From an uncultured Flavobacteriales bacterium (GTDB lineage Bacteria > Bacteroidota > Bacteroidia > Flavobacteriales > Schleiferiaceae): 64,000 nt of DNA. Shown piece after piece: positions 1,692 through 23,055 of this stretch. The notes below the pieces were generated by a model. That model made no database searches. It saw nothing but the letters and a program-made list of their open reading frames with translations, and was not told the origin of the DNA. The stretch is from assembly GCA_913055685.1 (NCBI GenBank), contig CAJXKC010000001.1, forward strand, positions 496,001 to 560,000, written 5' to 3'. The position numbers and the translations under genes are program-made. Within the stretch, counting starts at the first letter, position 1. Each line of letters starts with the position of its first letter.

Positions 1692-3055
1692 TGCCCTATT
1701 ATTTGCTCTTAGCTTTTGGGGGCTTATGGGCCGTTCTCTTCTTGCGCTTTAATCGCGCTTGGCTTTATAAAGTTGCCTTGAATAGTGTGGCGGTTCTCGA
1801 CACCATGCTTAGCGACAAGAGCGATGACGAAAAATTGGAAATACTGCCCAAGGCTACTGCCAGTTTACTGGGCTCACTTTTACTAAGTTTACTGCTTATT
1901 GTGCTGGCAATTGGCATTGCCTATTTGCCTTACGGCGGAAGCGAATACCTCTTTGGTCCTTCACCAGAAAGGCCAGCTTGGCTGGAGATTACCGCCCTTT
2001 CCATCGGTGCTTCCATTCCTTTCTTTTTGCCATTTAGGCGCGGACTCAGCAATTACTCGGAGCTTTCAATTTTACTGCACCGCTTAGTACTGAATCACCC
2101 AGCCATTGGCCTGCGTTTGTTTAAACGGGAGTTAAAACAAAAGAAAAAAGCCGGAATTGGGGCTCGGAAAGACTTTGTAATAATAAGTGGCTTGGCCCGA
2201 GCGGGAACCACCTCTTTGATGAACCTCCTCGCGGCCCGAGACGAATTAGACAGCCTTTCCTATGCCAATATGCCTTTTCTGCTGAGTCCAAATCTGTGGG
2301 CCAAGATTTACAATCCGAAAAAGGGAACCGAAAAAGAGCGCAGTCATAAAGATGGTATTAAAATCGGGCTAAAGTCTTATGAGGCCTTAGAAGAGTACTA
2401 TCATAAGGTGGCCGCTGATAATCGTTTCATTAAAGATAATCGGCTAGTTGAATACGACCTCCGCCAAGAGGAAGTTGAAAGCTACCTCGATTACCAAAGT
2501 TTAATTCGTAAAAGCGCCCGTCATCTATATTTAGCCAAAAACAATAACTTTCTACTCCGCTATAAAAGTATCCGCAAGTATAATAGCGATTTTGTTATGG
2601 TGCTTTTATTCCGGGAGCCTCTAAGCCATGCCAGCTCCTTAATGGAAAAACACCGTCAGTATTCAGAGATGCAAGCGCAGGACCCTTTTATACTGGAATA
2701 CATGAATTGGCTGGGCCACCATGAGTTTGGTGAGGGTCATAAGGCTTTTCAATTCGAAGGGCAAGCTTTGGTGGAAGGAAAGCCTCAGGACTTGAATTAC
2801 TGGCTAGAGCTTTGGCTTAATTATTACCAAAGGGCTCTAGCGATCGATGATTCTAAAACTTTATTCTTGGCCTATGAGGATTTTTGTGCTCAGCCAAATG
2901 AGGCACTCCATCGAATTTTTAAGGCTGTAAACCTTTCGCCCGAAAAAACCGCAATTCCAGCCTTTAAAAACTCCCGGGAAATTGAGGCTAAGGCAGACCC
3001 CGCCTTAGTGGAAAAGGCAGGGGCCCTTTATCAAAAACTAAAGGCTAAAGCTTAA
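1691..3055 (+). CDS. Membrane-anchored PAPS-dependent sulfotransferase-like protein
   Basis: 454 residues. Hydrophobic segments lie near 3-19, 60-80 and 97-115, followed by a soluble domain from about 160. GLARAGTTS (167-175) is the 5'-phosphosulfate-binding P-loop of sulfotransferases. A second typical region is FVMVLLFREPLSHASS, the 3'-phosphate loop area (Arg and Ser). Such enzymes move sulfate from PAPS to a hydroxyl on a carbohydrate, lipid or small molecule; the acceptor cannot be read from sequence. It is translationally coupled to the small membrane protein upstream. Its stop overlaps the stop of the convergent KAS III gene by 4 bp. The family call is firm, the substrate unknown. Confidence 0.78.
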   Translation: MPYYLLLAFGGLWAVLFLRFNRAWLYKVALNSVAVLDTMLSDKSDDEKLEILPKATASLLGSLLLSLLLIVLAIGIAYLPYGGSEYLFGPSPERPAWLEITALSIGASIPFFLPFRRGLSNYSELSILLHRLVLNHPAIGLRLFKRELKQKKKAGIGARKDFVIISGLARAGTTSLMNLLAARDELDSLSYANMPFLLSPNLWAKIYNPKKGTEKERSHKDGIKIGLKSYEALEEYYHKVAADNRFIKDNRLVEYDLRQEEVESYLDYQSLIRKSARHLYLAKNNNFLLRYKSIRKYNSDFVMVLLFREPLSHASSLMEKHRQYSEMQAQDPFILEYMNWLGHHEFGEGHKAFQFEGQALVEGKPQDLNYWLELWLNYYQRALAIDDSKTLFLAYEDFCAQPNEALHRIFKAVNLSPEKTAIPAFKNSREIEAKADPALVEKAGALYQKLKAKA

Positions 3056-4119
3056 ACGCGGTAGGTAATGGCGTTTATACTCATCCCCGCTCCTACCGAA
3101 GCCAATAAAATTATATCTCCTTCCTTGAGGTCGTCGTGGCCCTCCAACTGACCTTTGCGGAGAAGGTCCAATAAAGTAGGAACGGTAGCCACCGAACTAT
3201 TACCCAGTAAGTGAATACTCATAGGCATAATTCCCTCGGGGGCCGGAGTTTTATAAAGTCTAAAAAAGCGCTTAATAATAGCCTCATCCATCTTTTCGTT
3301 GGCTTGATGAATTAAGACTTTCTTTACCTGATTAATCGAAACTCCTGATCGATCCAAGCAAATTTTCATTGCGGCCGGTACATGGGTCAAGGCAAATTGA
3401 TAAATCTTGCTACCCTGCATTTTTATATAACGGGTGTCGTGGCCTGCCTCTGGATTGTAGCTTTCGCCATAATCCAAGAAATAAGCTTCCTCCTCGGTAA
3501 AGGTCTGGGAAGCGGTGCTTAAGATTCCCTTTTTTAAATCCTTATCTATCGCTTCTACCACTGCCGCTCCGGCACCGTCCGAGAAAATCATAGAATCGCG
3601 ATCATGCTTATCTACCTTACGCGATAAGGTCTCCGCTCCGATTACCAGATAACGTTTACCCTGGCCGGCCAAAATATAGTTATAGGCCAAAATCATGGCC
3701 TGCACCCATCCCGGACAACCGTAAAGTATATCGAAAGCAATACAATTCGGGTTTTTAATCTTCAGGTCGTGCTTAACCCGTGTAGCAAGACTGGGTAAAA
3801 TATCGGACTGAATCTTTCCGTGGGGAATATTTCCAAAATTGTGTGCCACAATAATGCCATCTAATGCTTCGGGCTCCACCCCAGAGTCCTCAATAGCTCG
3901 TTGCGCCGCAATAGTGGCTAAATCAGAGGTCTGCTGCTCTGGTTTCGCATATCGTCGCTCGCGGATACCGGTAATTTCTTCAAACTTGCGAATAGTCTCT
4001 TCTCCAGGTTGATCTATTAAAGCGCCTTCACGAGTGTAAAACTTGTTAGCAATGAAGTCTTCATTGGGAACTCTTAATTCAGGAATGCAAGATCCGGTAC
4101 CGGTAATTTCAAGGTTCAT
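3052..4119 (-). CDS. 3-oxoacyl-ACP synthase III (KAS III) family protein
   Basis: 355 residues with the full KAS III triad: Cys135 in LYGCPGW, His271 in LIHQANEKM and Asn307 in LGNSSVATVP. KAS III enzymes condense an acyl-CoA starter with malonyl-ACP. This one differs from housekeeping FabH around the cysteine (YGCPGW rather than ACSGF), so it may accept an unusual starter. It stands alone on the minus strand between a sulfotransferase and a FAS1 gene. A 23-bp palindrome just before its ATG nearly matches the one before the Nudix-type regulator at 18801, which ties it to the paa genes. Enzyme family sure; starter unit unknown. Confidence 0.85.
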   Translation of the reverse strand: MNLEITGTGSCIPELRVPNEDFIANKFYTREGALIDQPGEETIRKFEEITGIRERRYAKPEQQTSDLATIAAQRAIEDSGVEPEALDGIIVAHNFGNIPHGKIQSDILPSLATRVKHDLKIKNPNCIAFDILYGCPGWVQAMILAYNYILAGQGKRYLVIGAETLSRKVDKHDRDSMIFSDGAGAAVVEAIDKDLKKGILSTASQTFTEEEAYFLDYGESYNPEAGHDTRYIKMQGSKIYQFALTHVPAAMKICLDRSGVSINQVKKVLIHQANEKMDEAIIKRFFRLYKTPAPEGIMPMSIHLLGNSSVATVPTLLDLLRKGQLEGHDDLKEGDIILLASVGAGMSINAITYRV

Positions 4120-4121
4120 GG

Positions 4122-4144
4122 CTTAGTGTATTATTAACACAAAG
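4122..4144. promoter_or_regulatory. Candidate operator before the KAS III gene
   Basis: CTTAGTGT (4122-4129), a 7-bp AT spacer, ACACAAAG (4137-4144). The arms pair at 7 of 8 positions. It starts 3 bp upstream of the ATG at 4119, where a bound repressor would block initiation. It matches the palindrome at 19510-19532 in both arms except one base, with the same spacer length. Confidence 0.6.
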
Positions 4145-4272: not shown

Positions 4273-5274
4273 ATGAAATCATTTTTAAAGAAAGGGCTTA
4301 TCCTAGCGATGAGCAGCATGATGTTTTTAAGCTCATGTTCAGACGATGACAACAATGACCAAAACCCAGATCCAGGACCGCAAAGTTTAACCGCCACCTT
4401 AGCTGCCGACGCACGCTTTAGTGTATTGGTGGACGCCTTGCAACGCACCGGCTTAGATGCGACACTAGATGCCTCAGGAACCTATACGGTATTTGCGCCC
4501 ACTGATGCAGCATTTACTACTGCCTTAGGCGATTTAGGCTACAATAGTTTAGATGAGTTAGAAGCCGCTTTAACTACTGCTGGATTACGCAATGTACTCT
4601 TGTATCACGTTTTAGGAGCCGAAGTAATGGCTGCTGATGTGAGCACAGTTTATGCCAGCCCGGCCGCCACAAACGCAGATGGTGACGCCCTGTCTTTATT
4701 CATTAATGCAGGTAGTGAAGTACTAATTAATGATGCCGCTACCGTTCGTGAAACCGACATCAACGCGAGCAATGGGGTGGCCCACGTTATTGATGCCGTA
4801 ATTCTACCCTTAAGTGTTTATGGCCTCATTCAGGTTAACCCAGACTACAGCAGCTTGGAGGCGGCCCTTGGTTTAGCTGATGGGAACCTAGACGACGTTC
4901 TAAGTGGCGACGCTGCTCAGTACACTTTATTTGCTCCAAATAATGCGGCCTTTGACACCGTAGTTGCAAATACTCCGGGGGTAAACAACTTGGGCGAACT
5001 AGTTGCAGCCCTAGGTACCGATGTATTGTCTACCGTTTTATTGTATCACGTAGTAGACGGAACCGTATTAGCGGCCGACCTAAGCACCGGCAGCGTAAAT
5101 ACCTTGGCCAGCGACGGTATGGGAGGCCAGCTTGATATATTCATTAATATCGGAACCGAAGTAAATATCATTGACGATAATAATGATACTCAGGATGCCG
5201 TAGTGACCGGCACCGACTTTGTGGGTACGAATGGCGCGATGCATACCATTAGCAGCGTTTTATTACCACAGTAG
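4273..5274 (+). CDS. FAS1 (fasciclin) domain surface lipoprotein
   Basis: 333 residues. A lipoprotein signal ends at Cys22 (FLSSC); the acidic stretch after it (SDDDNND) resembles the export signal that sends Bacteroidota lipoproteins to the cell surface. Two FAS1 domains follow, about residues 38-180 and 184-332, each with the TVFAPTDAAF / TLFAPNNAAF strand and the LLYHV-H motif. FAS1 proteins mediate adhesion or matrix binding. The gene is monocistronic: its own inverted-repeat upstream region on one side and a strong terminator 20 bp after its stop. Family call is certain; the ligand is unknown. Confidence 0.92.
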   Translation: MKSFLKKGLILAMSSMMFLSSCSDDDNNDQNPDPGPQSLTATLAADARFSVLVDALQRTGLDATLDASGTYTVFAPTDAAFTTALGDLGYNSLDELEAALTTAGLRNVLLYHVLGAEVMAADVSTVYASPAATNADGDALSLFINAGSEVLINDAATVRETDINASNGVAHVIDAVILPLSVYGLIQVNPDYSSLEAALGLADGNLDDVLSGDAAQYTLFAPNNAAFDTVVANTPGVNNLGELVAALGTDVLSTVLLYHVVDGTVLAADLSTGSVNTLASDGMGGQLDIFINIGTEVNIIDDNNDTQDAVVTGTDFVGTNGAMHTISSVLLPQ

Positions 5275-15584: not shown

Positions 15585-16193
15585 CTAGTTTTTTTCGTCT
15601 CGGCTAGCCGTTTCCTGCCAAGTTTGAAAAAGTTTGTCCTGCTTTGGCCGATTGGGCTCCACTTCACGCAGAGGCTCACATTTTTTTAGACTGTCATACA
15701 ATTCTCCTGGCAGCTCTTGATAAAGCTCGGTTCCCTTGGTTTTCCAAGCCAACATCTCCTCACTCACCTGCTTAATTACCTTAGCAGGGTTACCCACCAC
15801 CAAGCTGCGTTCTGGAATTTGGCTATCTCCTTTAATAAAGCTCAAAGCACCAACTATAGAGCCTGCGCCCACTGTAGATCGGTCCATTACCACGGCATTC
15901 ATCCCTACCAGGCAGTTCTGCCCAAGGTTGGCACCATGTATTATGGCACCATGACCCACATGCGCTCCCTTTTCTAATCGGATGCTTACTCCCGGAAACA
16001 TATGCACCACGCAGTTCTCCTGAATATTGCAACCATCCTCGATAATGATTTGCCCCCAGTCGCCGCGAATTATGGCACCCGGACCCACATAAACGTCTTC
16101 ACCAATAATGACATTGCCAATTATTACTGCCGTTTCGTGAATATAAGCCGATGCTTTTATGACTGGTTTAAAGCCCTGGAACTCGTAAATCAT
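15585..16193 (-). CDS. paaY: PaaY, hexapeptide-repeat thioesterase
   Basis: 202 residues with left-handed beta-helix hexapeptide repeats (IIGNVIIGEDVYVGPGA...) and the metal-binding His residues of the gamma-carbonic-anhydrase fold (CVVHMF, HVGHGAIIHG). The C-terminal extension with LAWKTKGTELYQ and EPLREVEPNRPK matches PaaY rather than generic family members. PaaY removes dead-end CoA thioesters such as the ring-hydroxylated 2-hydroxycyclohepta-triene-formyl-CoA in the phenylacetate pathway. Its ATG overlaps the stop of the upstream gene (TAATG), and paaJ lies just beyond, so it is in a paa operon. Confidence 0.92.
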   Translation of the reverse strand: MIYEFQGFKPVIKASAYIHETAVIIGNVIIGEDVYVGPGAIIRGDWGQIIIEDGCNIQENCVVHMFPGVSIRLEKGAHVGHGAIIHGANLGQNCLVGMNAVVMDRSTVGAGSIVGALSFIKGDSQIPERSLVVGNPAKVIKQVSEEMLAWKTKGTELYQELPGELYDSLKKCEPLREVEPNRPKQDKLFQTWQETASRDEKN

Positions 16194-17524: not shown

Positions 17525-18733
17525 CTAAGCGCGTTCTAAAACTACCGCATAACCTTGACCCACACCGATACACATAGTGCAAAGCGCGTATCGTTTACCG
17601 GTTTTTTGTAGCTGAATTGCCGCCGTTTGCAATAAGCGCGCCCCCGACATTCCGAGTGGGTGGCCTAAAGCAATCGCCCCGCCATTAGGATTAATTCGTG
17701 GGTCGTCGTCGGCCAAGCCCATTAGTCGCGTGCAGGCTAAAACTTGAGCGGCAAAAGCTTCGTTAAGCTCAATGATATCTATATCCGCCAAAGAAAGTCC
17801 CGCTTTCTTAAGTGCAATTTCGGAGGCGTAAACCGGACCAATTCCCATCACGCGTGGCTCCACTCCCGCTACTCCCATTGACACCATTCGGGCTAAGGGC
17901 TTTAATTGATGGTCTTTTATTCCTTGCTCTGATGCTACTAAAAGAGCGGCCGCACCATCGTTCAAGCCTGAGGCATTTCCAGCGGTAACCGAACCTCCCT
18001 CCTTCTTAAAGGCAGGACGTAGTTTGGCTAAAACCTCCATCGATGAGCTAGGCTTGATGAATTCATCCTGGTCAAAGATTAAATCCTCTTGTTTGCGTCG
18101 CGGAATAGATACCGCCACAATCTCCTCCGCCATACGGCCGTTTTCACGAGCGGCGCTGGCTTTTTGCTGCGACCAAAGGGCAAACCGATCTTGATCCTCC
18201 CTACTTATTCCATATTCGGCCACTAGGTTTTCGGCCGTTTCGCCCATCGCGTCGGTACCGTAGCGCTTGAACATTTCTGGGTTCACAAATCGCCAGCCGA
18301 AAGAACTATCGTACATCTTAGAATCGGTACCAAAAGCCTTAGAGGGCTTACTCATTACGTAAGGGGCGCGCGTCATCTGTTCTAAGCCCCCGGCGACAAA
18401 AACCTCGCCATCACCATTACGCACGGCACGCATAGCCTGGGCACCAGCACTCATTCCACTAGCACATAATCGATTTACCGTTTCACCGGGCACCGAGAAA
18501 GGAAGTCCCGCTAATAAAGCGCTCATCCGCGCTACATTGCGATTATCCTCACCCGCCTGATTGGCACAGCCCATAATTACGTCGGCAATAGATTTGGGGT
18601 CAAGCTGAGGATTGCGTTCCATCAACTCTTTTATAACTAAGGCGCCCATATCGTCTGCTCTTACAGCCGAAAGGCTTCCTCCAAAACTGCCAATAGGGGT
18701 GCGAATTCCGTCTACGATAAATGCTTCTTTCAT
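17525..18733 (-). CDS. paaJ: PaaJ, 3-oxoadipyl-CoA / 3-oxo-5,6-dehydrosuberyl-CoA thiolase
   Basis: 402 residues from the ATG at 18733 (MKEAFIVDGIRTPIG, the standard thiolase start; the nine extra upstream codons are not conserved). Catalytic residues are Cys90 (NRLCASGM), His358 (ALGHPLG) and Cys388 (TMCIGVGQG). The sequence agrees with the PcaF/PaaJ subfamily, which releases acetyl-CoA from 3-oxo-5,6-dehydrosuberyl-CoA and splits 3-oxoadipyl-CoA into succinyl-CoA and acetyl-CoA, the last steps of the pathway. It follows the Nudix-type regulator by 67 bp and precedes the uncharacterised gene and paaY on the same strand. Confidence 0.92.
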   Translation of the reverse strand: MKEAFIVDGIRTPIGSFGGSLSAVRADDMGALVIKELMERNPQLDPKSIADVIMGCANQAGEDNRNVARMSALLAGLPFSVPGETVNRLCASGMSAGAQAMRAVRNGDGEVFVAGGLEQMTRAPYVMSKPSKAFGTDSKMYDSSFGWRFVNPEMFKRYGTDAMGETAENLVAEYGISREDQDRFALWSQQKASAARENGRMAEEIVAVSIPRRKQEDLIFDQDEFIKPSSSMEVLAKLRPAFKKEGGSVTAGNASGLNDGAAALLVASEQGIKDHQLKPLARMVSMGVAGVEPRVMGIGPVYASEIALKKAGLSLADIDIIELNEAFAAQVLACTRLMGLADDDPRINPNGGAIALGHPLGMSGARLLQTAAIQLQKTGKRYALCTMCIGVGQGYAVVLERA

Positions 18734-18800
18734 GTGAGGTGTTTTTGGGTTCAAAACCAAATTCCTTGCGAATATCGCAAACCGGCCGCGAAGGCGCTAA

Positions 18801-19502
18801 TTATTGATACACGAAATCGTATCCTTTGAGGGAAAGGGTGCGGTACTTTTTCTCATCAAACTTAAACAGTGCGCTGGGTCGCTTAGCCCGAGGGGAGCTG
18901 CGAACCGTCTTTCCCGTTTCCAATAGCAATTCGCTCTTCAACAACTTTCGTCGGAAGTTTCTTTTATCCAAAGATTTGCCCAAAGCTTGCTCGTAGAGAC
19001 TCTGAATTTGATTTAGGGTGAACTCTTGGGGTAAAAGGCTAAAGCCAATTGGGCGCCGCTTAACCCTTCGCTTTAGACGCTCACGCGAGTATTCTACAAT
19101 ATCCGCATGGTCATAAGCCAAAGGCGGCAAGTCATTTACCTTTACCCAACGGTATTCGCTACGTTGCAGGTTGTAGTGGACATTATCATCTAAACGAAGG
19201 GTACCGTAATACGCGATATTTACTACTCGACCAGAGGGGTTTCGATAAGGGTCGGAAAAAGCATTTAAGATTTCAACTGGCCAATCATCTCGTCCAGTGA
19301 TGCGTCGCATTAGCTCCTTGGCAACGATAAAGGTGTCCTCATCAGGGCGAACCTTAACTGAGGGTAATACATTAGCACCCGCAAATGGCTCATTACTCTT
19401 GGTGGCAATAAGGAGTTTTAAATCCTCGCCATCAAAGCCGTACAACACCACTGAGGTGGCCAAGGCAACCTTAAAATCTTCTTCTCTGAATTCGACCCGC
19501 AT
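18801..19502 (-). CDS. NrtR-type Nudix transcriptional regulator, candidate paa regulator
   Basis: 233 residues. The N-terminal 140 residues have a Nudix fold, but the Nudix box is destroyed (RPDEDTFIVAKELMRRITGRDD lacks the REUXEEXG core), as in Nudix proteins turned ligand sensors. The C-terminal part (about 150-233) is the winged-helix domain of NrtR-family repressors (LLPQEFTLNQIQSLYE ... LDKRNFRRKLL). Relatives bind metabolites and control sugar or NAD genes. Here it sits inside the paa run, between paaI and paaJ. A perfect 23-bp palindrome 7 bp before its ATG suggests autoregulation. Control of paa genes is inferred; the classical PaaX/PaaR regulators are not seen. Confidence 0.85.
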   Translation of the reverse strand: MRVEFREEDFKVALATSVVLYGFDGEDLKLLIATKSNEPFAGANVLPSVKVRPDEDTFIVAKELMRRITGRDDWPVEILNAFSDPYRNPSGRVVNIAYYGTLRLDDNVHYNLQRSEYRWVKVNDLPPLAYDHADIVEYSRERLKRRVKRRPIGFSLLPQEFTLNQIQSLYEQALGKSLDKRNFRRKLLKSELLLETGKTVRSSPRAKRPSALFKFDEKKYRTLSLKGYDFVYQ

Positions 19503-19509
19503 AATTTTA

Positions 19510-19532
19510 CTTAGTGTAAATATAACACTAAG
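19510..19532. promoter_or_regulatory. Palindromic operator of the Nudix-type regulator
   Basis: CTTAGTGT (19510-19517), 7-bp spacer, ACACTAAG (19525-19532): perfect 8-bp arms. On the minus strand it contains TATATTTA, one mismatch from the TAnnTTTG box, so binding would cover the promoter. The copy at 4122-4144 differs by one base in the arms. Confidence 0.7.
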
Positions 19533-19546
19533 CTAAGGAATTTATT

Positions 19547-19954
19547 TTACCACTCCGTGTTTTTTCGAAAAACCGTACCCTTAAAATGAGCGATTAGATC
19601 CTCATTTTCAGCATATACGCGCACCTCGTAGATTCCAGTACTACGGGTTTTCTTTATTTCTTTTGCCTCCGCCCATATCGTTTCTCCCGCCTTTACCGGT
19701 TTAAGGTGTGAAATGGAGGTCTCAATTGACAAGGCATGGGTTCCGTGACCATTAGAGGCAAAGGCCAGGGCACTGTCCGCTAAAGAATAGGAAATCCCAC
19801 CGTGCGCAATCTTAAAGCCATTGGTCATTTCATCGCGAACCTCCATGCTTAATTTGCAGTAACCGGGTTCGGTAATCAATACTTTTATGCCCAGCCACTG
19901 ACTAAAAGCATCTCCATCGTACATGGTTTTTACTACTTCGGCTGCGCTTTTCAT
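19547..19954 (-). CDS. paaI: PaaI hotdog thioesterase
   Basis: 135 residues, hotdog fold with the PaaI motif HGGISYSLADSALAFASN (His-Gly-Gly and the catalytic Asp). PaaI hydrolyses hydroxyphenylacetyl-CoA and other stalled thioesters, returning free CoA. The length equals that of characterised PaaI (about 140 residues). Its start overlaps the stop of the hypothetical gene upstream by 4 bp, and the Nudix-type regulator follows after 44 bp on the same strand, so all three probably share a transcript. Confidence 0.9.
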   Translation of the reverse strand: MKSAAEVVKTMYDGDAFSQWLGIKVLITEPGYCKLSMEVRDEMTNGFKIAHGGISYSLADSALAFASNGHGTHALSIETSISHLKPVKAGETIWAEAKEIKKTRSTGIYEVRVYAENEDLIAHFKGTVFRKNTEW

Positions 19955-20845: not shown

Positions 20846-21571
20846 TTAAGCCTCTTCGGCCGACCTTATTTTATTGATGAAGAACTCCTCCAGCTCACCG
20901 AGCGTTTGTTCGCTGGTATGAATGTCTTTTACCACCTGGCCGTGATCTAGAATAACAATGCGTTCACAAAACTTGGTAACGTGACCTAAATCGTGGCTGC
21001 TAATGAGCATAGTTATATCGGTTTCCTCGTCCAGCTTTTTCAGCTCATCCAGAAGACGAAATTGGGTAGAGGGGTCTAAATTAGCGAAGGGCTCATCCAA
21101 AATAAGAATGTCTGGGTTTCCAATTAGCGCCCCTACAATTCCCACCTTCTTTTGATTGCCCTTACTTAGATCGCGGATGTATTTCTTTTTCCCTCTAATT
21201 TCATCGTTAAAGAAGTCGTCGTATTTCGACAAGACCGCTTCCAGGTCACCGGCACTCATTTTGTGCAGCTTGGCAATAAAGGCGAAGTACTCATCCGGAG
21301 TTAAATAATCAATGAGAAAGCCCTCGTCGATAAAACTTCCTGTGTATTGCTTCCACTCTTCAGATTGGGCTACGTTTTTACCCTGACTAAGAACCTCGCC
21401 AGTATCGGCGGCAATGAGGTCCAAAATTAAGCGGAACAAAGTGGTCTTTCCCGCTCCATTATTACCCACTAAGCCTAAAGACTGTCCTTTGTTAAACTCT
21501 AATTGCTCTATGTCAAGGACCTTGCTGCCATTGTAGGACTTCGAAAGGCCTTTTACTGATATTATACTCAT
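20846..21571 (-). CDS. ABC transporter ATP-binding protein
   Basis: 241 residues with Walker A GNNGAGKTT (36-44), signature LSKGNQKK, Walker B ILILDEPFANLD and the switch His in SSHDLGHV. It pairs with the DUF5687 permease upstream, 5 bp away. Together they form an exporter of the ABC-2 style; the cargo is unknown. The pair lies between paaH and the ferredoxin on the same strand as the paa genes. Confidence 0.92.
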   Translation of the reverse strand: MSIISVKGLSKSYNGSKVLDIEQLEFNKGQSLGLVGNNGAGKTTLFRLILDLIAADTGEVLSQGKNVAQSEEWKQYTGSFIDEGFLIDYLTPDEYFAFIAKLHKMSAGDLEAVLSKYDDFFNDEIRGKKKYIRDLSKGNQKKVGIVGALIGNPDILILDEPFANLDPSTQFRLLDELKKLDEETDITMLISSHDLGHVTKFCERIVILDHGQVVKDIHTSEQTLGELEEFFINKIRSAEEA

Positions 21572-21576
21572 GTGTT

Positions 21577-23055
21577 TTAGTCTTTTTGACGGTAGCCCGC
21601 CGCGTTAATGTATTTCTTTTCCTTAAAGTTGAGCACCGTTTGCTTGATAAAGTAATTCTGAAAGATCAAGCCTATTATTCCCAATGCCCCTAAGGCAATA
21701 AGACCGTAGTATTCGGCGTCAAAAACGGCAAAGCCCATGTATACCAGCATGGGCAGGCCAATTAAGGGCAGAACAATCACAAACTGTGCGGCCCCAGTGC
21801 CTTGGTAGTTGAAAGCCGAACCCCGACTTAAGTCAATTGGCTTCTTATTATACGTACTAGCGAAAATTAGGACTGCCGTATTAATCCCAATATTGTATAG
21901 CGCTGCCGCCAAGTTTCGGTACAAGGCGTCTATCCCAAAATATACATAGGGAATGGTTAGCACAAACATGAGCACCACACCAAATACCATTAAGTAATAC
22001 TTCGATCGATAGTAATCCTCCATGGAATAGGCCCTGGTTAAAATCCCATCAAAATAGGAACTCTCCCAACTCACCAAAAACTGACCATAATTAATCATAA
22101 AAACCCCCGTCATAAATATGCTCACAAAAAGCAACATCCCGTCCCGATTAGCAAACTCTTCTTGGGTATAAAAAAACAGGCCATAAAGGGCCATAAAGGC
22201 AGCGGTGTATACCACCACTTTGGTGCGCTTGTTACGCAATATTAACTTCAGCTCATTGGCAATCATCATCCCCATAAAGCCTTTGTCCTCAAGAAAGCTA
22301 AAGCGTAAACTCGAGGCTTCCTTGGCTTTACTTCGCCAGCGGTCGAGGTGGGTCATGGACAATAAAAAACGGAAGTTCAATTGGTACATGAGCACTAAAA
22401 GGGCCAAGGCCAGTGGCGCTCCGATCAGGGTCTCGGCCAAGGGGCTGTAAATCATCGCCGAAAGCGGACCTAAGTCGATTAAGTCCATTGAATTGGCAAT
22501 AAAGAGTCCGGCTACTATAAGGCCAAAGCCAATGGTGATTACCGGTTTCACCGCCACCACACGCTTTAGATAAATCGCTAGGTAATGATTACTCAGAATG
22601 AGCATGATAAAGCCTACAAACCATAAGCCCGCTTGCAGCGCCCCATACTCCATGGGCACCACTCTTAGGGCCCAGGGCACAATAAATAATAAGGGCAACA
22701 AATTGAAAAAGCTGAACACCGAGCTTTGCAGTAAAAAGTGCACCACGCGCTTCTTAGATAGCGGAGTGGTGAGGTAATGCTGTACCGAGAGCACATTTAA
22801 ATCCTGCAAGAAAAAACGCATCGCTAAATCCGCTAAGAAATAGTACAATACGCCCTTGCTAAAAATGGGCGTCAGCTTATCGGCTTCTGGAAAAGTATCC
22901 CCCAGAATCTCCTTCATAAAGTAACCTAAAAGGCCGAAAGAGCCCAAAAAGTAAAGGGCAACCAGCAGCAGTAAAATCTTTATCCCCCAGCCTTGCCGAA
23001 AAAAGGTGGAGCGAAAGATCTTTTTAAACTGATGCCTAAATAATTCACTGTGCAT
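21577..23055 (-). CDS. DUF5687-type ABC permease
   Basis: 492 residues and about 10-12 hydrophobic spans, beginning with a cytoplasmic stretch (MHSELFRHQFKKIFRSTFF) and a first span near 27-47. The layout matches the DUF5687 family of Bacteroidota ABC permeases, always encoded beside an ATPase like the one at 20846. It would form the membrane channel of the exporter. Substrate unknown. It follows paaH by 93 bp on the same strand, so it may be in the paa transcript or have its own promoter. Confidence 0.85.
   Translation of the reverse strand: MHSELFRHQFKKIFRSTFFRQGWGIKILLLLVALYFLGSFGLLGYFMKEILGDTFPEADKLTPIFSKGVLYYFLADLAMRFFLQDLNVLSVQHYLTTPLSKKRVVHFLLQSSVFSFFNLLPLLFIVPWALRVVPMEYGALQAGLWFVGFIMLILSNHYLAIYLKRVVAVKPVITIGFGLIVAGLFIANSMDLIDLGPLSAMIYSPLAETLIGAPLALALLVLMYQLNFRFLLSMTHLDRWRSKAKEASSLRFSFLEDKGFMGMMIANELKLILRNKRTKVVVYTAAFMALYGLFFYTQEEFANRDGMLLFVSIFMTGVFMINYGQFLVSWESSYFDGILTRAYSMEDYYRSKYYLMVFGVVLMFVLTIPYVYFGIDALYRNLAAALYNIGINTAVLIFASTYNKKPIDLSRGSAFNYQGTGAAQFVIVLPLIGLPMLVYMGFAVFDAEYYGLIALGALGIIGLIFQNYFIKQTVLNFKEKKYINAAGYRQKD

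Follow-up and report, generated by a model that had tools for sequence, protein, structure and literature searches.

The locus studied here raises the question of whether a regulator encoded within a catabolic gene cluster also controls that cluster. In the window, meaning the whole 64,000-nt stretch of DNA from an uncultured Flavobacteriales bacterium that we analysed, the gene referred to below as REG1 lies among phenylacetate (paa) genes, and the original prediction was that its product, an NrtR-like protein with a dead Nudix domain, controls the paa genes and might sense a CoA- or nucleotide-type ligand.

REG1 encodes a 233 aa protein with an ATG start, which we checked for the features of the NrtR family, namely a C-terminal winged helix, an impaired N-terminal Nudix signature and a palindromic operator of ~21 bp at regulated promoters. 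Residues 151–225 match the Pfam family NrtR_WHD (PF21906; E=9e-22, 77 bits with a cut-off of 27) and, overlapping it, AraR_C (E=2e-14). The Nudix-like N-terminal domain was recognised by full-length alignment with Bacteroides thetaiotaomicron AraR (BtAraR) and S. oneidensis NrtR (SoNrtR); its Nudix box is degenerate, KELMRRITG replacing the catalytic REUxEExG and LPSV replacing LPGG. The best PDB match is BtAraR (5bs6, E=8e-40), ahead of SoNrtR (3gz5, E=8e-18), and the NCBIfam NrtR equivalog NF050029 gives E=2.5e-26 and 92.6 bits, far under its 400-bit cut-off. The predicted combination of winged helix and inactive Nudix domain is thus confirmed and, together with a conserved palindromic upstream site that is a predicted operator, identifies REG1 on sequence grounds as a member of the NrtR family, an AraR-like regulator probably of the sugar type. 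The genome encodes three NrtR-family paralogues, REG1, REG2 and REG3. A scan of genome contigs with a single sequence returned just one distant relative. In the phylogenetic tree REG1 forms a clade separate from REG2 and REG3 (support 100/99), and REG3 likewise forms a clade of its own (support 100/99).

Table 1. Positions of the genes and sites discussed in the text (window numbering unless a contig or locus is named).
Feature	Position	Strand	Remarks
REG1, NrtR-family transcriptional regulator (degenerate Nudix domain and winged helix)	18801..19502	-	ORF; Pfam NrtR_WHD/AraR_C; BtAraR closest solved structure
Perfect operator-like palindrome CTTAGTGT-N7-ACACTAAG	19510..19532	.	8-N7-8, upstream of REG1
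Putative sigma-A -7 box TATATTTA	19517..19524	-	Inside palindrome; match to consensus TAnnTTTG
Second operator-motif copy, 15/16 (CTTAGTGTATTATTAACACAAAG)	4122..4144	.	Between KAS III-like gene (3052-4119, -) and fasciclin gene (4273-5274, +)
paaJ/pcaF-type 3-oxoadipyl-CoA thiolase	17525..18760	-	NF006551 620 bits (cut-off 605); TIGR02430 614 bits (cut-off 597)
paaY-like hexapeptide-repeat protein	15585..16193	-	ORF, named from resemblance only
paaI-like thioesterase	19547..19954	-	TIGR02286 113 bits, slightly below 118.9 cut-off
REG3	G000:C1:818012-818659 (L077:5983-6684)		Divergent from pfkA-gapA
Intact-core site	REG1 promoter		
Intact-core site	KAS III/fasciclin intergenic region		
Intact-core site	GH31 glycosidase		
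Intact-core site	Small glycogen-binding-like protein		Divergent from UspA-like gene; named by resemblance, no Pfam match
Intact-core site	CBM48/alpha-amylase-domain protein		Resembles glycogen branching enzyme
Intact-core site	Phosphofructokinase (pfkA)/REG3		
Intact-core site	Secreted alpha-amylase		
Intact-core site	Aldehyde dehydrogenase		

The palindrome, CTTAGTGTAAATATAACACTAAG, shows a 16/16 arm match and sits in the 44-nt gap between the end of the paaI-like gene (19547) and the start of REG1 (19502), which bears out the claim of a perfect palindrome over the regulator's own promoter. The window holds two matches to the motif at up to three mismatches, with 0.27 expected. Conservation upstream of orthologous regulators had been proposed as a test, and we found an intact GTGT-N7-ACAC ~20 to 64 nt before the REG1 start in ten genomes, namely the source genome (G000), G001, G003, G005, G006, G014, G030, G015, G048 and G242, the G003 site being weak outside the core. 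Such a site occurred in 6 of 20,000 random 92-nt stretches, a figure to be read knowing that the members of one genus among the ten genomes are not independent. In G014, G030, G015 and G048 REG1 lies in unrelated neighbourhoods away from paa genes and yet keeps the site, which argues that the site travels with the regulator. No such site was found in the REG1 promoters of G004, G013, G017, G018, G031, G020, G007, G029, G011 and others, and the site is therefore not a general means of REG1 control. Conservation in ten genomes nonetheless predicts that the palindrome is a real operator. A variant with an 8-bp spacer, GTGT-N8-ACAC (e.g. GTGTATTTCGGTACAC), precedes REG1 in L028, L207 and L209 of genus g12, and the REG3-pfkA sites of this genus keep the 7-bp spacer.

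The palindrome also contains a putative -7 box, TAnnTTTG being the -7 box of flavobacterial sigma-A (PMC9723704). An exact TAnnTTTG in the direction of REG1 lies inside five of the ten REG1 sites (G001, G003, G005, G014, G242), and three further sites, including that of the window, match it at 5/6 letters; in G004 the palindrome is lost upstream of REG1 and TATATTTG is retained. No TAnnTTTG box was found in any REG3-pfkA site tested, and a -33 element is not clearly seen at the REG1 promoter. Since the palindrome covers the -7 box, its position suggests repression.

The gene neighbourhood of REG1 is that of a paa cluster. The paaI-like gene stands directly upstream of REG1, paaJ likely starts at an ATG at 18733, 67 nt past the REG1 stop codon on the same strand, and the paaY-like gene follows further downstream, again on the same strand and in a position kept in the genus. 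Family profile searches identified paaH-, paaG- and paaD-type proteins among the neighbours, and nearby ORFs resemble paaABC and paaE in sequence. No other regulator was seen among the paa genes in the window ORFs, in line with the original prediction, and no PaaX (TIGR02277) was found in the genome. In genus g1, every sampled member with an intact contig has REG1 immediately before paaJ; among the genomes read, a REG1 gene within the paa cluster is confined to this genus and one close relative, G013, and this placement is a local feature. Two genes of an ABC transporter, for an ATPase and a permease (window 20846-23055), are likewise kept within the paa cluster across the genus. Between REG1 and paaJ, at window 18766-18780, we observed a perfect inverted repeat, TTGCGATATTCGCAA, with no other copy in the window, whose exact 14-mer core precedes paaJ in G001, G003 and G005 and is partial in G004 and G006. 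As a candidate paa operator, TTGCGATATTCGCA in front of paaJ was rejected, since its exact copies occur almost only there and define no regulon.

The operator motif does not extend to the rest of the pathway. No site was found at paaABC, paaE, paaD, paaG or paaH in the window, and the best match in its 15-33 kb part, the REG1 promoter aside, reaches 11/16. Similarly, a search of 20 relatives found no site up to 1.5 kb away from paaA, and an operator at paaA/paaE was discarded as a candidate after none was seen in them. The genomes G036, G038, G043, G051 and G056 have REG1 but no paaA, and G016, G024 and G033 have paaA but no REG1, while in G007, G011, G014, G015, G017, G018, G020, G029, G030, G031 and G048 both are present but far apart or on different contigs; the regulator and the paa pathway are inherited independently. 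With no other paa promoter carrying the site, and with the genome-wide sites located at glucan/glycolysis genes, the proposal that REG1 controls the paa genes was not supported. This corrects a reading of guilt by location: a regulator within a catabolic cluster is not thereby the regulator of that cluster. The sole paa link left is possible read-through from the REG1 promoter, which could affect paaJ-paaY, and the place of REG1 directly upstream of paaJ across the genus may leave it a local paa role.

A genome-wide scan for the palindrome had been put forward as a check on paa control, and its matches are non-random but fall at glucan/glycolysis genes and not at paa genes. Eight matches in the whole genome have an intact GTGT-N7-ACAC core (Table 1), six of them at starch/glycogen/glycolysis-type genes, as named from flanking ORFs and Pfam; a PEP carboxykinase (PEPCK) gene lies near a site with a one-letter core variant. 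Relatives repeat the motif at pfkA-gapA/REG3 and at genes for a SusC-like receptor, GH31, the glycogen-binding-like protein, branching enzyme, a GH65-like protein and PEPCK. Allowing up to one mismatch, ten relatives gave 27 motif places, versus 8 for a reversed control pattern. The second copy in the window, absent from the original prediction, lies directly upstream of the KAS III-like gene and divergent from the fasciclin-domain gene; it was rejected as a conserved KAS III target, none being found upstream of the orthologues examined (a set without G031, G038, G043, G051 and G056).

The distribution of these sites points to REG3, which is accompanied by a GH65 gene and one for a SusC-like receptor. 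Almost all relatives read carry the N7 site in the REG3-pfkA promoter region, and its persistence there, including in G033 and G024, which have REG3 and lack REG1, indicates that the motif is primarily that of REG3. The glucan/glycolysis regulon would therefore chiefly belong to REG3, its sites persisting in genomes without the window regulator. The recognition-helix stretch DKRNFR[RK]K[LI]LK is common to REG1 and REG3, and nearly the same helix implies overlapping specificity, which makes autoregulation by REG1 plausible. Spacer letters were tried as a means of separating REG1 from REG3 sites and gave no clean split, because the inner-edge G of REG1 sites stems from the -7 box. We also searched for a regulon of REG1 itself through the variant TGTGT-N7-ACACA in G043 and G056, both REG3-less; the 14 and 7 matches (versus 3 and 4 for controls) formed no coherent gene set. 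As for REG2 (L076:8582-15256), it lies beside sugar-transporter-like and GH30-like genes, and no GTGT-N7-ACAC site was found at this locus. A literature search found, within the collection searched, no paper describing the glucan/glycolysis regulon of REG3, which in these Bacteroidetes genomes is apparently an undescribed NrtR-family regulator of pfkA/gapA, SusC-type receptors, GH31, branching enzyme and PEPCK; this regulon is a notable by-product of the analysis.

As to the ligand, the L-arabinose-binding residues of BtAraR are Arg34, Arg86 and His131, and in SoNrtR Arg98 serves to bind ADP-ribose (PMC4666351). In the alignment, REG1 has Lys, Arg and His at the three BtAraR positions, the latter two conserved family-wide, and no Arg at the SoNrtR Arg98 position. 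As Arg86 and His131 are common to all three paralogues, they are only weak pointers to a sugar-like ligand as opposed to a nucleotide or CoA ester, and the suggested sensing of CoA-type ligands found no support.

Altogether, we consider it likely that REG1 is an AraR/NrtR-family repressor with a sugar-type sensor, autoregulated and/or under REG3 via a shared operator, and that its regulon is not the paa gene set as a whole. REG1 would act as a repressor, probably dimeric, with its inactive Nudix domain sensing a ligand that is most likely a sugar or a small sugar-like metabolite; as the GTGT-N7-ACAC operator overlies the -7 box of the REG1 promoter, protein bound to it would block RNA polymerase. 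This operator class would be common to REG1 and REG3, the sites of the latter marking maltose/starch, glycogen and glycolysis genes, and with such sharing the expression of REG1 would be set by REG1 and/or REG3. We regard it as unlikely that in this genus, where REG1 and its sugar-regulon operator precede paaJ-paaY, carbohydrate status, via REG3 and/or REG1, gates the last step of phenylacetate breakdown in a sugar-over-aromatics hierarchy made up of NrtR-family repressors.

One arm of this explanation can be put more sharply: the palindrome would be an operator of REG3 only, and REG3 would control REG1, whose own operator and regulon would differ. This fits the recurrence of the motif in front of REG3-pfkA in almost every relative; those genomes with a REG1-associated N7 site that were checked have REG3 as well, and G043, with REG1 and no REG3, is without a site at REG1. 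However, the recognition helix is nearly identical in REG1, self-regulation is common among NrtR-family regulators, and G056, in which REG3 was not found, has a GTGT-N7-ACAC palindrome upstream of REG1 that is not conserved in G043; we view exclusive control by REG3 as a tentative option towards which we do not lean. The view first proposed, in which REG1 senses a CoA thioester and is dedicated to the phenylacetate pathway, would agree with the position of the gene between paaI and paaJ throughout the genus and in G013, with the lack of PaaX in the genome and with REG1 being the only regulator seen among the paa genes. It is improbable in view of the site-free paaABC/E/D/G/H genes of the window and paaA regions of 20 relatives, and of the independent occurrence of REG1 and paaA (five genomes with REG1 only, three with paaA only, eleven with the two apart).

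More doubtful still is a classical NrtR, i.e. a repressor that responds to ADP-ribose and acts on NAD biosynthesis genes, despite the NrtR_WHD domain and the weak NCBIfam NrtR match: the score lies far under the NF050029 cut-off, REG1 is closer to AraR than to SoNrtR, the Arg98 position is not Arg, and no NAD biosynthesis gene was recognised among the genome-wide motif matches examined at up to three mismatches. Given its place in the short gap after paaI, the palindrome could also be a terminator or an inverted repeat that arose by chance, a reading to which we give hardly any credence, since the palindrome is conserved in ten genomes in differing contexts, the same sequence recurs at a coherent gene set, and the arms are not G+C-rich and are followed by no T-run.

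REG1 thus belongs to a known family, and its link to phenylacetate is not supported. It shares with PaaX and PaaR, the phenylacetate regulators, a location among paa genes, but these belong to unrelated protein families, and the REG1-type operator is missing from the other paa promoters. SoNrtR (PDB 3gz5/3gz6), an ADP-ribose-responsive NAD repressor, has the same fold and domain order as REG1 but is the more distant relative, its Arg98 is not kept, and no link of REG1 to NAD genes was seen. BtAraR (BT0354; PDB 5bs6/5dd4/5ddg/5deq) resembles REG1 in having the architecture of the NrtR family, with a degenerate Nudix sensor and a similar winged helix (DKRNFR), and in the R86/H131 positions that REG1 retains, and its sites also precede the operon containing its own gene. 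In contrast to BtAraR, REG1 has Lys at the R34 position, falls in a separate clade with another gene neighbourhood, and shows no arabinose linkage, no arabinose genes being recognised near REG1 or its orthologues. BtXylR (BT0791), the NrtR-family xylose regulator, is comparable by description as a Bacteroidetes sugar regulator (PMC4666351, PMC3878776). Confirmation of the REG3 regulon would extend the reach of NrtR-type regulators from arabinose and xylose use to central hexose/glucan metabolism.
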